Positions 40,951 to 64,000 of a stretch of 64,000 nucleotides of DNA are shown piece by piece. How positions within the stretch are numbered: position 1 is the stretch's first letter; each line of letters starts with the position of its first letter. The notes under the pieces are model-generated. The model made no database searches, had not been told where the DNA came from, and saw nothing but the letters and a program-made list of their open reading frames with translations. The position numbers were made by a program, and so were the translations under genes. Source of the stretch: Lentimicrobium sp. (GTDB taxonomy: Bacteria; Bacteroidota; Bacteroidia; Bacteroidales; Lentimicrobiaceae); assembly GCA_019429275.1 (NCBI GenBank), contig JAHYJC010000004.1:1-64000 (forward strand). Direction: 5' to 3'.

Positions 40951-42129
40951 ATGATTACTTTTGAAGAAGCACTCAATATAATTAATCAAATACCTGTCAC
41001 AACGCATACAGAGCAAGCCAGGCTTGAAAATGCAGTTGGCCGGGTGTTGGCTACCGACATTTTTTCGGATGTTGAAATGCCGCCTTTTGATAAGGCAGCA
41101 GTGGATGGTTATGCATGCCGTAGAGCCGATTTGCCGGGTCCGTTTGAGGTTGTTGAAATCATCCCGGCAGGGGTGGTTCCTGAAGTTGCTTTAGCACAAG
41201 GGCATTGTTCAAAAATTATGACCGGTGCAATGGTTCCGGTAGGTGCTGATACCATTATTATGGTTGAATACACCGAAGTTGATTCAAATGGAATGGTTAC
41301 TTTCAACCTGGAGAAGACTTCCTCCAATATTGCGTATCAGGCTGAAGATGTAAAGGAAGGGCAATTGGTTCTTCAGAAAAATACACTACTGAAGCCTCAT
41401 CACATTGCCATACTCGCTGCAGTGGGTGTTTCTGAACCTATGGTTTTCAAATGTCCGGTTATTGGCGTGATTTCAACCGGCGATGAACTGGTTGAACCAG
41501 ACAAAAAGCCACGATCGGGCCAAATCAGAAACAGCAATGCGCATCAATTGATTGCCCAGTCCAAGGCAATGGGTCTCAATTCAGTTTATTTAGGAATTGC
41601 ATCCGATACTCCTGATAGCATTGAAATGCTTCTGGAGAAAGGATTCAATCAATGTGACATACTGTTGCTTACAGGTGGAGTTTCAATGGGAGATTTTGAT
41701 CATGTTCCGGCCGTTCTTGATAAAATGGGAATAACAGTGCTTTTTAAAAGTATTGCTGTTCAACCGGGTCGCCCAACTGTCTTTGGAGTGAAAGGTAATA
41801 AATTTTTATTTGGTTTGCCCGGTAACCCTGTTTCATCTTATGTTCAGTTTGAACTTTTGGTAAAGCAACTGGCCTTCAGATTAATGGGCCATACCTATAA
41901 ACCTATGATAGTAAAATTGCCAATGGCTGCTGATTTCACTAGAAAAAAAGGAATAAGAAAGTCATTTATGCCTGTCAAAATAAATTCCGAAGGTAAAATA
42001 GAGCCTCTCGAGTATCATGGATCGGCGCATATTCACGCTTACGAGGGTGCCGACGGAATAATGGCTATTGAAATTGGCGAAACAAAAATTATTTCAGGAG
42101 AATACAGAGATGTTCGACAATTACAATAG
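40951..42129 (+). CDS. moeA: Molybdopterin molybdotransferase MoeA
   Basis: 392 residues from ATG 40951 (MITFEEALNIINQ), the normal length. Motifs: MPPFDKAAVDGYACR, IMTGAMVPVGADTIIMVE, GVISTGDELVEP, QIRNSNAHQL, LLTGGVSMGDFD and FGLPGNPVSS. MoeA inserts molybdate into adenylated molybdopterin, the last step of Mo cofactor synthesis. The frame is open further upstream through the pyrimidine tract, which I exclude. It overlaps moaA by 20 bases. The product would serve the Psr molybdoenzyme of this window. Confidence 0.95.
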   Translation: MITFEEALNIINQIPVTTHTEQARLENAVGRVLATDIFSDVEMPPFDKAAVDGYACRRADLPGPFEVVEIIPAGVVPEVALAQGHCSKIMTGAMVPVGADTIIMVEYTEVDSNGMVTFNLEKTSSNIAYQAEDVKEGQLVLQKNTLLKPHHIAILAAVGVSEPMVFKCPVIGVISTGDELVEPDKKPRSGQIRNSNAHQLIAQSKAMGLNSVYLGIASDTPDSIEMLLEKGFNQCDILLLTGGVSMGDFDHVPAVLDKMGITVLFKSIAVQPGRPTVFGVKGNKFLFGLPGNPVSSYVQFELLVKQLAFRLMGHTYKPMIVKLPMAADFTRKKGIRKSFMPVKINSEGKIEPLEYHGSAHIHAYEGADGIMAIEIGETKIISGEYRDVRQLQ

Positions 42130-42910
42130 ACAAATCAATTACCTTCGGATTTCAGTTACCGACCGTTGCAACCTGCGTTGTTTTTACTGCATGCCTGAGA
42201 AAGGGGTTGAAATGCTGCAACACTCTGATATTTTGTCGTTTGATGAAATTGCTGCAATTACCCGAATCGCTGTTGGCATGGGTGTAAATAAAGTGAGAAT
42301 TACCGGTGGTGAGCCTCTGGTTAGAAAAGGGGTTGTTAATCTGGTAAAAATGCTGGCTTCAATTCCCGGAATTGATGATTTGTCGATGACGAGTAACGGA
42401 ACATTGCTTTCTCGTTATGCCAGTCAGTTAAAAGAAGCAGGATTAAACCGTTTAAATATCAGCCTCGATACTCTGGATTCAGAAAAATACCGAAAAATTA
42501 CCAGAGGAGGCAATTTAGTTGAGGTTCTCACAGGAATTAAAGCAGCTCGGGATGCAGGACTTTCTCCGATAAAAATAAATTGCGTGGTTAAAAAATCATC
42601 AAACGAACCTGATGCAAAAACAATTAAAGCCTTCTGCAATGATAACGGGTTTCAGGTTAGATTTATCCATCAAATGAGCCTGACCGAAGGACACTTTTCT
42701 GTTGTTGAAGGAGGCTCTGGTGGCGATTGCAGCAATTGTAACCGTTTAAGGCTTACTGCCAATGGAAAATTAATGCCTTGTCTTTTTAATGGGATCGGAT
42801 TTGATGTCAGAAAGATGGGTGCTGAAGAAGCAATTCGGATGGCCCTGGAGAACAAACCTGCTTGTGGAAGTATGAATTTGAGCGGAGAGTTCTTTAACAT
42901 TGGAGGGTAG
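42110..42910 (+). CDS. moaA: GTP 3',8-cyclase MoaA, compact form
   Basis: 266 residues from ATG 42110, about 60 shorter than usual. The radical SAM cluster is Cys20, Cys24 and Cys27 (CNLRCFYC), followed by RITGGEPLVRKG. The C-terminal cluster is Cys207, Cys210 and Cys224 (CSNCNRLRLTANGK...C), and the chain ends in the conserved Gly-Gly. What is missing is the segment between the RFI strand and the second cluster: only 15-20 residues (FIHQMSLTEGHFSVVEGG) replace the usual 60-70. Both clusters and GG are intact, so it is probably active. AGGAG lies 9 bases before the start, inside moeA. Confidence 0.9.
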   Translation: MFDNYNRQINYLRISVTDRCNLRCFYCMPEKGVEMLQHSDILSFDEIAAITRIAVGMGVNKVRITGGEPLVRKGVVNLVKMLASIPGIDDLSMTSNGTLLSRYASQLKEAGLNRLNISLDTLDSEKYRKITRGGNLVEVLTGIKAARDAGLSPIKINCVVKKSSNEPDAKTIKAFCNDNGFQVRFIHQMSLTEGHFSVVEGGSGGDCSNCNRLRLTANGKLMPCLFNGIGFDVRKMGAEEAIRMALENKPACGSMNLSGEFFNIGG

Positions 42911-55886: not shown

Positions 55887-57866
55887 TTACCTGATTGATG
55901 AAAGTACTTCACGGTTAACTGTATATGGATATTTTTGGCGAAGCTCTTTAATCCAGATTTTTTCCAGATAATTTTGATAATCGGAAGTAATAAGGCCTCT
56001 GGCTTCATCAAGTTGTTTTGGTTCAGGTTCCAGAACCTGATGTATGTTTATAATATGCACCTTTTCGTTGAGCTGGATATCTTTTGAGATTCCTTTTTCC
56101 CAGTTCACCGAATCGATGATTGAATTATCGCCTTTTGAAAATTTGCGATGATCGGTGGAAAGGATAGTTGTTGAGTCGTTGTTGAATTGTTCAAGGAGTT
56201 CGTTGTCGCTTATTCCTTTCAGAATATTCCTGCGAAGCTCACTGATGATTTCCTTGTTGTCAGACCCAAGGGTGTAAATGGTAGCTTCAACGCGCTGATC
56301 CCACATGTAATCGGATTTATGATTTTCGTAAAACTCAGCAAGTCCCAAAGTGTCCTTTACTGCTTTTGACCATATTTTCTGGTCAGTCAGTTCAAACAAT
56401 AATATACCATCACGGTATTCGCGCACCAGCGATTTAAATTCAGGGTATTTTGATTCTAGCTGCGAATCTTCATAGGCCAGAAGTACATCATTCAAAAAGT
56501 TCTGGTAATTGCCATTCACAAATTGACTGATATCTTCAGGGTTACGTTTTTTCTGGTTTACTTCAATGTATTTGGCAAAATCCTGCTGAGTAATGCTTCT
56601 TCGCCCTATGGTAAAGAGGGTTTTGTTTAACCCCTCAGCTTGGTTCGAATTCCATCCTGCATTAAAAACAGTATCTGTCACAACTTTATAAAAAGCAGTG
56701 AGTGCTTTTGGGTTTTCAGTAAATTTATATTCCTTCTTAATGCGGTTGATTAATGCTTCTTCACTTTTTTTGGCTCTGTCGTTACGCGACAGACTTTGCT
56801 TTAGTTCGTTCAGATTTTCATCGTAAGTGCCAATATCCTTATGATCAATTAATTTGACAATATGCCAGCCAAATGAGGAAATGAAAGGCTTTGTAATTTC
56901 ACCAGGATTTTTAAGTGTCGAAATTTCTTTGATAAACTCAGGAATCATCTTATTGGATCCGAACCAGGGAAGTATTCCGCCTTTTGTTGATGTCGATTTA
57001 TCGTCAGAATATTGCTCGACAAGTTTTGCAAAATCTTCTCCTGATATAGCCTTTTCGTAAATTTCATTTGTTTTTTTTGCAATTTCAGCACTGTCGGTTA
57101 TCGATGCGCCTGAGGGTATCCTAACGAGAATGTGTGCCACCTGAACTCTTCCCATTGCAGGTTTGCGGTCGGTGATCTTTATAAGGTGATAACCAAAGTC
57201 ACTCCGAGCCGGCATTGAAATTTCACCCGGCAGGGTTTTGTATGCTCCTGTCTCAAAAGGATAAACCATATCGAAAACGGTAAAATACCCCAGATCGCCC
57301 CGGTTTCCTTTGAAAGTGCGGCCTTCGGCAACCCGGTCACGAGCTGAAAGGTCATCGGATAATTCTTCAGCTACTTTTCCGAAATCTTCTCCCTTAAGTA
57401 TCCTTTTGCGGATATTCATTATCCTTTTATATGCATCAAGTGTATCCTGCGGTGATGCATTGTTATCAACCCTGATAAGAATGTGACTTGCCCTGATGTC
57501 GGATTTTTTTCTATCGTAAGCCTCATTTAATAGCGCCCGGTTCATTTCTTCATCAATCAGGTACGGCTGTGCGAGTTGTTTTCTGTATCCTGCAAGCTCA
57601 TCTTTGAATGCTTTAACGGTATCAAGTCCAAGGGCTTCGGCCTCTTTAACCTTTAATCTGAAGTTGATATACAACTCCATATATTCCTCAAGCGATTTGG
57701 TGTCGATGACATCTCCGCTTACATTATTTTTTTGGAAAACTTTTAGAAATTCAGATTTTGTGATTTCTTCGCCGGCAACGGACAGAACCACGGGGTCCTG
57801 AGCATGGGATAATGTTGAGAGGCACAAAAAAAGAACGATAAAAATTCCAAACACTGATTTTTTCAT
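55887..57866 (-). CDS. Peptidyl-prolyl isomerase with two parvulin domains
   Basis: 659 residues with a signal peptide (about 1-22, SHAQ). A SurA/PpiD-type N-domain (VVLSVAGEEITKSEFLKVF) leads into two parvulin domains: ASHILIRVDNNASPQD...RGDLGYFTVFDMVYPFE (about 125-235) and VAHILVRIPSGA...GGILPWFGSNKMIPEF (about 240-350). A helical C-terminal half of 300 residues follows. It acts in the periplasm on outer-membrane or secreted proteins. It is the first gene of the foldase cluster and 9 bases before the lipoprotein gene. Confidence 0.92.
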   Translation of the reverse strand: MKKSVFGIFIVLFLCLSTLSHAQDPVVLSVAGEEITKSEFLKVFQKNNVSGDVIDTKSLEEYMELYINFRLKVKEAEALGLDTVKAFKDELAGYRKQLAQPYLIDEEMNRALLNEAYDRKKSDIRASHILIRVDNNASPQDTLDAYKRIMNIRKRILKGEDFGKVAEELSDDLSARDRVAEGRTFKGNRGDLGYFTVFDMVYPFETGAYKTLPGEISMPARSDFGYHLIKITDRKPAMGRVQVAHILVRIPSGASITDSAEIAKKTNEIYEKAISGEDFAKLVEQYSDDKSTSTKGGILPWFGSNKMIPEFIKEISTLKNPGEITKPFISSFGWHIVKLIDHKDIGTYDENLNELKQSLSRNDRAKKSEEALINRIKKEYKFTENPKALTAFYKVVTDTVFNAGWNSNQAEGLNKTLFTIGRRSITQQDFAKYIEVNQKKRNPEDISQFVNGNYQNFLNDVLLAYEDSQLESKYPEFKSLVREYRDGILLFELTDQKIWSKAVKDTLGLAEFYENHKSDYMWDQRVEATIYTLGSDNKEIISELRRNILKGISDNELLEQFNNDSTTILSTDHRKFSKGDNSIIDSVNWEKGISKDIQLNEKVHIINIHQVLEPEPKQLDEARGLITSDYQNYLEKIWIKELRQKYPYTVNREVLSSIR

Positions 57867-59495: not shown

Positions 59496-59815
59496 TGAAA
59501 AATAGGTTTTCAATTGGTTTATGTTATCCTGATCCTGCCGCCATAAAATCAGTAATCCATCCATTGGAAATATTTATATATCAGCCATGTGCATAATTGT
59601 TGTTTTAGCCAGATTTTTTCAAGTTTTAATATTTGTTTTTAATAAGCAGATAAACAGGTCAATACAAAATATAGTTTTACTAAAATTCTAATTTATCGAA
59701 AGGCTCTCATCATAGAATTATGAGGAAACGAAATAATTTTAATTCCTTTTAGTACTTGTTAAAAAATCCTAAATTTACAGGTTGCAAACCTATTGTTGGA
59801 TTAGTACAAAAGATT
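59496..59815. other. Intergenic region between guaB and the CotH gene
   Basis: About 320 bases, strongly AT-rich, between divergent genes. Apart from the guaB promoter element I see no full TAnnTTTG match for the CotH gene, no open frame worth listing and no clear RNA structure. A weak inverted repeat (CTCAT...ATGAG near 59704-59723) is present. Confidence 0.4.
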
Positions 59816-61486
59816 ATGAACAAATATCCTCTGCTATCGCTTTGTTTTACTCTTTATCTGGGAGTTGCTTCTTCTCAGGAATATCAAACTAATTGAAGTT
59901 CAATGCCTGAAAATAAGAGCGTGTCAATAATTTTTGAATCCTCCAATCTTCCCATATTTTTTATTGACACTTACGGAGAAGAAATTCCTGATGACCCCAA
60001 AATTCTGGTCGGGATGAAAATTATTGATAACGGACCCGGGGTTCGTAATTTTGTAGATGATTCTCCTGTTTATGATGGGAACGCAGGTTTTGAAATCAGG
60101 GAATCCAGTTCCCAGATGTTTTCTAAAAAGAGCTACGGATTTGAAACCTGGGATGCAAACGGCAACGATATTGATGTTTCGCTGTTAGGTATGCCCACAG
60201 AAGCTGACTGGATTCTCAATGCAAATTACGCTGATAAAACTTTCAACCGGAATGCATTGGCCTATCAGGTTTCTCAGAACATGGGGCATTATTCAACCAG
60301 GTATAAATTTGTAGAAGTAATAATTAATGAGGTAAATATGGGCATTTATTTGTTTTCTGAAAAGATCAAGCGCGATCCTAACAGATTAAATATTGCCAAA
60401 CTCAGTTCAAATCAGAACACCGGAGATGCAGTAACCGGAGGATATATATTTAAGGTTGACAAATCAACCGGCAGTGGAGGCGATGGTTGGACATCTGCAT
60501 TTCCTCCGCCGGTTCATCATTACGGGCAAACCATATTTTTTCAATATGAATATCCCAAAGCAGGAGATATCACCATACAGCAGAAGCAATATATTGCTGA
60601 ATATGTAAATACTTTCGAAACCGTTCTTGCAGGACCGGGTTTTGGAGATCCTGAAAATGGATTCAGAAAATATACCGATGAACTGTCGTTTATTGATTAT
60701 TTTCTGGTGAATGAAATCAGTAAGAATGTCGACGGATACCGGCTTAGCACCTTCCTTCATAAACAGCGCGAAAGCCTGGGCGGAAAAATCAGAATAGATC
60801 CTGTTTGGGATTATGATATTGCATGGCACAATGTCAATTATTGCGCGGGCGATGAACTCACAGGATGGGCTTATCAGTTTCCATGCAAAGGTGATTACTG
60901 GCAGGTGCCTTTTTGGTGGGGAAGAATGCTCGAAGACAGCACCTTTGCCAACAACCTGAGATGCCGCTGGGAAATGCTCCGCGGAAACCTGCTTAGTAAC
61001 CAATGGTTTGAAAGTTATATTGACAGTGTGGCACTTCTGCCGGATGAATCGCAGCAACGTAATTTTACGGTATGGCCAATACTGGGCGTTTATGTATGGC
61101 CGAACCCATGGCCTTGTCCTCCTACTTATTCAACTGAAATCGAGTCACTTAAAGACTGGATTTTTCAGCGACTCAAATGGCTCGACGTCAACCTTCCTGG
61201 CACTTGCTATACACTGAACACCAATACGTTGACAGTAAACCAATCCGGAATAAAATTGTTTCCAAACTCAGTTGGAGATTTGGTGCAAATGGGAAATTTG
61301 CCCGAAACAAACATTGTTTCGGAACTCGAAATAATTGATGCCTGTGGCCGGATTGTTTATCGCCGGCAAATCAAACTTGAGTCAGCAAATCATTTTTTAG
61401 ATGTTGGGTTCCTTAAAACCGGAATTTATACACTCAGAATATCTGATGGAAAGACAATGAATTTTTCCCGTTTTGTAAAGAAATAA
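59816..61486 (+). pseudogene. CotH-family secreted protein with C-terminal sorting domain, interrupted by in-frame TGA
   Basis: Translation from ATG 59816 gives a clear signal peptide (MNKYPLLSLCFTLYLG..., ending ASSQ), then a TGA at 59894-59896, then the same frame continues for 529 codons. The main part is CotH-like: SSNLPIFFIDTYGEEIPDD, RESSSQMFSKKSYGFETWD, LLGMPTEADWILNANYADK, TGGYIFKVDK and RIDPVWDYDIAW. The last 80 residues (IKLFPNSVGDLVQ... LKTGIYTLRISDG) resemble the type IX secretion sorting domain. Starting at the internal ATG 59903 would leave out the signal peptide, so a working exported product needs readthrough, or this is a recent nonsense mutation or a sequence error. Confidence 0.8.
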
Positions 61487-61599: not shown

Positions 61600-64000
61600 A
61601 TGAAACGACTAATTCTTTTCCTGACTATGACTTATGGATTGTTGCAAGCGCAAATCCCGCAACAATATCAACTTCCCCCAAAAGAAATTCTTGAACTTGT
61701 TGACATTAAACCTCGGCCAATAATTCGCATTGATAGCCGGAATCAAGCTATGGTTTTGCTTGAAAGGCAGGTCTTCAAAACCCTTGAAGAAATGGCTGCC
61801 GATGAAATCAGACTGGCGGGACTGCGCATCAATCCGGCAACAAATGGCCCGGCAAGGGTAAATTTTACTTATGGAATTTCAATAATCGACATTAAAACAG
61901 GATATAAACCAGAAATTAAGGGACTTCCTGAAAAACTCATGATTTCAGATTTTTCATTTTCACCCGATGCTACACGGATTGCTTTTACCAATACGGTTGC
62001 TAACGGCATTGAACTCTGGACCATTCACCTGAAAACAGGGGAAGCCGAAAAACTTACATCTCCGGTGCTGAACGGCAGCATGGGATTTTCCTACGTTTGG
62101 ATGCCCGATTCTCAATCTCTGCTTGTGCTAACTGTACCCGAGGATCGCAGACCAGTTCCTGAAAACAGAGAAATGCCTTTAGGTCCGGCTGTTCAGGAGT
62201 CATCGGGTCGTAAGGCTCCGGTGAGAACCTATCAGGACCTGCTTCGCAATTCTGCAGATGAGGATTTGTTTGATTATTATACACTGTCGCTGGTTTTTAA
62301 AACTGATTTGCAGGGAAATCAGACTGAATTTCTGCCATCTGCCATCTACCGTTCCCTGAATTTTTCACCCGATGGTAAATTTCTATTGGTTCAGACCATC
62401 AGCAGGCCTTATTCCTATATCGTTCCATCTGGCCGTTTCCCAATGAATAATGCTATTTATAATTCTGAAGGAAAATTAATTATGGATCTTTATCATCGTC
62501 CCCTTATCGATGAAATACCCACAGGTTTTGATGCAGTGGAGGTTGGGAAAAGGAGTATTGGCTGGCGGGCTGATACACCGGCCATGCTATTCTGGGCCGA
62601 AGCCTGCGATGGTGGAGATCCGGCTGCCGAAGCTGAATACCGTGATGAAATTTATATGTTGAATGCTCCTTTTGATGGGGAGCCGGCACTTTTGGCTCAG
62701 ACTCTAAACCGCTTCAGGGGAATCAGCTGGGGAAATGAAAATATTGCTATCTTATACGACGGTTGGAGAAAAAACCGCCGTTCAATATCCTATCTGATTG
62801 ATCCATCTATCCGAAATGTGAATCCTCAAATAATTTTTGATCGGTCAACTGAAGATTATTATGGTAATCCGGGGACTTTTTTGCTTAAACAAAATGATTT
62901 TGATGCATTTACACTTTGGTTTTCAGCCGATGGTAAAAAGATTTTTCTGAGAGGCGAAGGTTATTCCCCCGAAGGAAATAAACCCTTTCTTGATGAATTT
63001 AATTTGAAAACATTCAAAACCAAACGTTTGTGGCAGGCCGATGGTTTAACCACCTATGAATCTATTATCAGGGTTGTGGATCCCGAAAATAAACTGCTGA
63101 TTACTTCAATTGAAGGCAAAACTCAGAATCCCAACTATTTTCTGCGAAAAGGTAATAAAATAAGCACATTGACTCAATTTCCAAACCCATATACTTCATT
63201 TATGAATGTGAGTAAAGAGTTGATTCGCTACAAACGTAACGATGGTGTTGATCTTTCTGCAACGCTTTATTTACCTGCGGGATATGTCAAAGATCGTGAT
63301 GGAAAACTACCTACCCTGATGTGGGCTTATCCCAGGGAGTTCAAAGATGCCCAACAAGCCGGACAACTCAAAGAATCACCGCATACTTTTGTTCGGTTGA
63401 ATTATGGTTCGCCGGTATTCTGGGCAGCAAGGGGATATGCAATTATTGATGATGCAGACTTTCCTGTTATTGGCGAAGGCGAAAATGAGCCGAATGACCG
63501 GTTTACTGAACAGCTTGTTGCAAATGCTGCTGCAGCCATAGATTATGCAGTTGCGCTGGGAGTTGCCGATTCCAGTAGAGTTGCCATTGGTGGCCATTCC
63601 TACGGCGCCTTTATGACGGCAAATCTGATGGCTCACAGTGATTTGTTTGCTGCAGGAATTGCCCGCAGCGGAGCGTATAACCGCACCCTGACTCCATTTG
63701 GATTTCAGGCCGAAGAAAGGACCTTTTGGGAAGCGTCAGAGGTTTATCTGAAAATGTCTCCGTTTGTGCATGCCGATAAAATCAATGAGCCGCTTTTGCT
63801 GATCCATGGTGAGGCAGATAATAACCCGGGGACATTCACATTACAGAGTGAACGTTTGTACGGAGCCATACAGGGACTGGGTGGCACGGCCCGGCTAGTG
63901 TTGCTTCCCTTCGAAAGCCATGGTTATAGCGCCAGGGAAAATGTACTTCACATGCTTTGGGAAACAGATGCATGGCTGGAAAAATACGTTAAGAACAAAA
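61600..64000 (+). CDS. S9-family serine peptidase (prolyl oligopeptidase type), 3' end outside window
   Basis: 800 codons from ATG 61600 to the window edge with no stop. A signal peptide (about 1-18, ending LQAQ) implies export. Residues about 90-540 are the beta-propeller, with repeats such as ISDFSFSPDATRIAFTN and LNFSPDGKFLLVQT. The C-terminal alpha/beta hydrolase domain has the full triad: Ser667 in GGHSYGAFM, Asp740 in HGEADNNPG, and His774 in FESHGYSAREN. The length and SYGAFM form fit the glutamyl endopeptidase-like S9 subgroup. Only a few residues should be missing. It follows the CotH gene by 113 bases in the same direction. Confidence 0.92.
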   Translation, partial: MKRLILFLTMTYGLLQAQIPQQYQLPPKEILELVDIKPRPIIRIDSRNQAMVLLERQVFKTLEEMAADEIRLAGLRINPATNGPARVNFTYGISIIDIKTGYKPEIKGLPEKLMISDFSFSPDATRIAFTNTVANGIELWTIHLKTGEAEKLTSPVLNGSMGFSYVWMPDSQSLLVLTVPEDRRPVPENREMPLGPAVQESSGRKAPVRTYQDLLRNSADEDLFDYYTLSLVFKTDLQGNQTEFLPSAIYRSLNFSPDGKFLLVQTISRPYSYIVPSGRFPMNNAIYNSEGKLIMDLYHRPLIDEIPTGFDAVEVGKRSIGWRADTPAMLFWAEACDGGDPAAEAEYRDEIYMLNAPFDGEPALLAQTLNRFRGISWGNENIAILYDGWRKNRRSISYLIDPSIRNVNPQIIFDRSTEDYYGNPGTFLLKQNDFDAFTLWFSADGKKIFLRGEGYSPEGNKPFLDEFNLKTFKTKRLWQADGLTTYESIIRVVDPENKLLITSIEGKTQNPNYFLRKGNKISTLTQFPNPYTSFMNVSKELIRYKRNDGVDLSATLYLPAGYVKDRDGKLPTLMWAYPREFKDAQQAGQLKESPHTFVRLNYGSPVFWAARGYAIIDDADFPVIGEGENEPNDRFTEQLVANAAAAIDYAVALGVADSSRVAIGGHSYGAFMTANLMAHSDLFAAGIARSGAYNRTLTPFGFQAEERTFWEASEVYLKMSPFVHADKINEPLLLIHGEADNNPGTFTLQSERLYGAIQGLGGTARLVLLPFESHGYSARENVLHMLWETDAWLEKYVKNK

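Follow-up and report, generated by a model that had tools for sequence, protein, structure and literature searches.

In Bacillus subtilis, CotH acts as a Ser/Thr kinase on spore coat proteins, and the substitution D228Q inactivates it (PMC7821199). The CotH kinase family is represented by the structures 5JD9 and 5JDA (spore coat protein H) and is recognized by the profile PF08757. In Bacteroidota, type A cargo of the T9SS carries two export signals, i.e. an N-terminal Sec signal peptide and a C-terminal sorting domain (TIGR04183). Bacterial pseudogenes with a single nonsense mutation form a further point of comparison: these show one stop, an intact orthologue in a sister species, relaxed constraint and a locus that is empty in other relatives. 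The CotH gene described here resembles them in all these respects, and no feature that would be unusual among them was found.

The gene lies in a 64,000-nucleotide stretch of DNA, the window, from Lentimicrobium sp., an uncultured bacterium. The window is part of a contig of 147 kb in a genome of 4.19 Mb (108 contigs, 96.5% complete), the one genome by which the species is represented. The genomes most closely related to it are Lentimicrobium-like, belong to the Bacteroidales and were obtained from metagenomes. Elsewhere in the window, a moaA-like frame at 42110-42910 looks short for its family (~266-280 aa).

An in-frame TGA between two export signals

The locus begins on the forward strand with a segment of 26 codons at 59816-59893 (ATG at 59816; MNKYPLLSLCFTLYLGVASSQEYQTN) that was assigned as a signal peptide by eye. 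It is followed by a TGA at 59894-59896, in the linker between the signal peptide and the CotH domain, and then by a single open frame of 529 codons (59897-61483) that ends with a TAA at 61484-61486. The sequence-only reading had placed the signal peptide, the TGA and the CotH/sorting-domain frame in one reading frame, and both the sequence and the domain matches bear this out. The first internal ATG, at 59903, is 6 bases past the TGA and opens an ORF of 527 aa, the numbering of which is used below.

The frame at 59897-61486 is a member of the CotH family by its profile: residues 65-427 match PF08757 with an E-value of 4.7e-50 (171 bits, cut-off 23.8) and cover positions 3-322 of the 322 in the profile. 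A PDB search with the single window sequence gave no CotH match, and a search with a profile found 5JD9. The window copy keeps NVDGY and WDYD, which match NFDGF and WDYD of 5JD9, although the part of the alignment that shows this has a low score. It differs from the family in being severed from its signal peptide and in the replacement of the conserved Gly and Pro of the RGSSSQxFPKKS motif (60098-60133, here RESSSQMFSKKS). Judging from its conservation, this motif may have a role in nucleotide binding. The window gene probably gives no active protein.

The sorting domain was found at 61256-61483 (residues 452-527), where TIGR04183 scores 29.6 bits against a cut-off of 23; PF18962 reaches 26.9 bits on the same tail, slightly below its cut-off of 27. 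In other words, the window gene has both the signal-peptide segment and the sorting domain of T9SS type A cargo, but the TGA separates the two, so that no single protein contains both and the product cannot enter the Sec/T9SS route. The ancestral product would have consisted of a Sec signal peptide, a CotH domain of the atypical kinase type and a T9SS sorting tail. Translation would now stop just past the signal peptide and the exported protein would not be made. A restart at the ATG at 59903 would give a protein that stays in the cytoplasm, where the sorting tail is useless.

Orthologues across the junction

The nearest relative (G013) has a syntenic CotH orthologue with 83% identity over the CotH part. 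The alignment of the two loci has no gaps; it runs from the leader upstream, across the signal peptide (MKKSLLFLLFFAIFLTNAFSQEKYIK in G013) and the junction with its linker, into the CotH domain, and G013 has a sense (Gly) codon at the position of the TGA. The gapless alignment argues that the signal peptide and the CotH frame are one gene, which carries a disabling lesion where its orthologues are intact. The other homologues inspected in the genus are likewise unbroken from the export signal to the CotH domain, and the TGA is absent from G013 and from all of them. The sequence-only reading would have had to be given up if homologues started naturally at the internal Met; none of those inspected does so, since they read on from the export signal, and the Met at that place is not a conserved residue.

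In the window as well as in G013, G005, G006 and G010, the CotH gene lies between guaB and a gene for an S9 family peptidase. The latter (61600-63999, forward strand; PF00326, E-value 3.2e-22) is open in the window, has a signal-peptide-like start of its own and is syntenic in the relatives. We note that the S9 peptidase gene beside CotH in G010 consists of two overlapping frames (G010:C49:94646-97020; L152, L157), possibly because of a frameshift or an assembly error.

The homologues vary in their domain architecture. In G007, CotH follows directly after the signal peptide, just as in the window. Most other homologues of the genus are ~700 aa long and have an extra domain between the signal peptide and CotH, which in G005 is a proprotein-convertase P-domain (PF01483). 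Such an extra N-terminal domain is found in the CotH orthologues L057 (PF01483), L054 and L055 and is missing in the window, G013 and G007.

An accessory gene of the transcription unit

A 26-nt leader (TTGTTAAAAAATCCTAAATTTACAGG, 59756-59781, forward strand), likely the promoter or 5' leader of the transcription unit, precedes CotH in the window and in G013. In no fewer than three species of the genus (G001, G014 and G011), the same leader is followed immediately by the S9 peptidase gene, with no CotH gene; in the genome of the window the leader occurs as a single copy. In G001, a gap of only ~370 bases separates guaB from the S9 gene and contains no CotH gene. The placement of the leader across the genus indicates that CotH was either gained or lost between the leader and the S9 gene; within the genus it is thus an accessory gene of this transcription unit.

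A CotH paralogue is present in the same genome ~27 kb further on (G000:C51:88139-89422). It is a 793-aa open frame that keeps RGQSSQMFPKKS and has an unbroken signal peptide. The loss of the window gene is presumably tolerated owing to its accessory nature and to the presence of this second CotH gene.

Missense decay in the remaining frame

Further stops or frameshifts were looked for in the 529-codon frame and none were found, and the pairwise dN/dS between the window and G013 CotH genes is 0.10, a value that alone would suggest constraint. The inactivation must therefore be recent. The sequence-only reading had described the rest of the gene as free of other lesions, which is correct as far as stops and frameshifts go but does not extend to missense changes. 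Of 165 columns without variation in 20 homologues, the window copy departs from the shared residue in 7 and G013 in none. The seven changes are G67E, P74S, Y145N, G299D, A311V, L380P and P456S, the first two of which fall within the RGSSSQxFPKKS motif.

In a first count of nonsynonymous to synonymous changes, the window branch had 17:32 and the G013 branch 2:32 (p 0.003), and fourfold sites had changed to a similar extent on both. These naive counts were dropped as proof of relaxation, since some neighbouring genes are also faster on this lineage. With G005 and G006 as outgroups, changes in the near neighbours are distributed 135:54 toward the window branch and those in CotH 27:6 (p 0.29). The SurA-like gene at 55887-57866 and the S9 peptidase gene both show more lineage-specific protein change in the window than in G013. 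In other words, protein evolution around the CotH locus is faster on the window lineage, and it is these fast neighbours that leave the CotH excess not significant with this outgroup pair and few neighbours.

For this reason, relaxation was tested again with 20-26 genes as controls and with several choices of outgroup, and the claim held for most of these choices. The full set of controls comprised 26 other genes of the window, polarised in the same way, and changes at conserved sites were compared between the window branch and the G013 branch. With G005 and G010 as outgroups, CotH had 20:3 changes against 309:240 in the 26 genes (odds ratio 5.2, p 0.004) and ranked first of 27. It also ranked first in severity, a test picked after the changes had been seen: the mean BLOSUM62 score of the window-branch changes was -0.45 in CotH and +0.83 in the controls (p 0.0003). 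Other pairs and triples of outgroups gave p values of 0.004 to 0.012 for the count and 0.0004 to 0.0013 for severity, with CotH at rank 1 or 2. The exception was G005/G006 with four control genes, where p was 0.11 for the count and 0.003 for severity. Selection on the lineage with the lesion is thus relaxed beyond that on the regional genes, with the count test not significant for G005/G006.

By a hand estimate, one nonsense change is expected under neutrality for about as many nonsynonymous changes as make up the excess seen here, i.e. roughly twenty, hence a single stop is unsurprising. The remaining frame has already begun to drift under relaxed selection, and we infer that the window gene no longer yields a functional protein.

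The same changes bear on whether the TGA is real. The base could have been miscalled in the assembly or the consensus, or could stem from a minority allele in the assembled genome, with the gene intact in the living population: one base is involved, and the assembly is a single genome of the species, in 108 contigs and 96.5% complete. This option was already part of the sequence-only reading and stays as a rival, but we consider it unlikely, because a consensus error accounts neither for the surplus of severe changes that conserved sites show in the rest of the frame nor for the lack of such a pattern in the other window genes. Presumably, the TGA is real in the population.

It is also conceivable that the protein from the internal ATG has taken on a new cytoplasmic role and that the changes are adaptive. 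The ATG only 6 bases past the TGA, the open frame behind it and the concentration of change on this lineage would all suit such a role. The internal Met is not conserved, however, the sorting tail has been kept although it would serve no purpose, and several changes of a damaging type at invariant positions are spread over the frame, which fits drift; adaptation is thus a most improbable account.

Recoding, readthrough and phase variation

No match to SelB or tRNA-Sec was found above the curated cut-offs in the genome (96.5% complete), and decoding of the TGA as selenocysteine was rejected. TGA is the terminal stop in 5 of the 26 window genes with orthologues, each of which has a further in-frame stop within 2-12 codons. 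TGA thus works as a normal stop in the window and a changed genetic code was rejected, in agreement with what had been concluded from the sequence.

Direct repeats are absent around the junction, the inverted pairs are weak and chance-like only, and the junction occurs nowhere else in the genome, with or without the TGA. Since neither a slippage tract nor repeats nor an alternative copy were found at the junction, repeat- or inversion-driven phase variation was rejected, and the suggestion of a switch or phase-like variant loses its support.

UGA is the leakiest stop in bacteria. Functional readthrough, near-cognate or programmed (including Sec), would make a little full-length secreted CotH protein, and the frame does run on for 529 codons with no further stop. 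Downstream of the TGA the RNA could form a hairpin, but it is weak (z -1.7) and the folding of the RNA there is unremarkable. SelB and tRNA-Sec are not seen above cut-off, the TGA is found neither in G013 nor in the other homologues, and constraint is relaxed in the conserved CotH motif. Moreover, readthrough and a reversible switch would both keep the protein under selection, and yet invariant positions have changed, radically and on this lineage only. We therefore regard functional readthrough as very improbable, and just as improbable its use as a graded switch that would hold a surface protein at a low secreted level.

Significance

We conclude that the window gene is very probably a young pseudogene of a gene for a dispensable secreted CotH-domain protein. 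A gene in the early stages of loss is the most likely reading, ahead of a switch or of recoding. Of the four options that had been offered from the sequence, i.e. a very recent pseudogene, a switch, programmed readthrough or an assembly error, the first is the best fit to the lineage-only radical changes and the intact orthologues.

Gene loss of this kind is ordinary, and the value of the case is mainly that of a worked negative. Nevertheless, it illustrates that a frame which is spotless but for one stop can be shown to be decaying when its lineage-specific changes are compared with those of the regional genes, and it lets the turnover of a secreted CotH gene be seen within one genus of the Bacteroidales.
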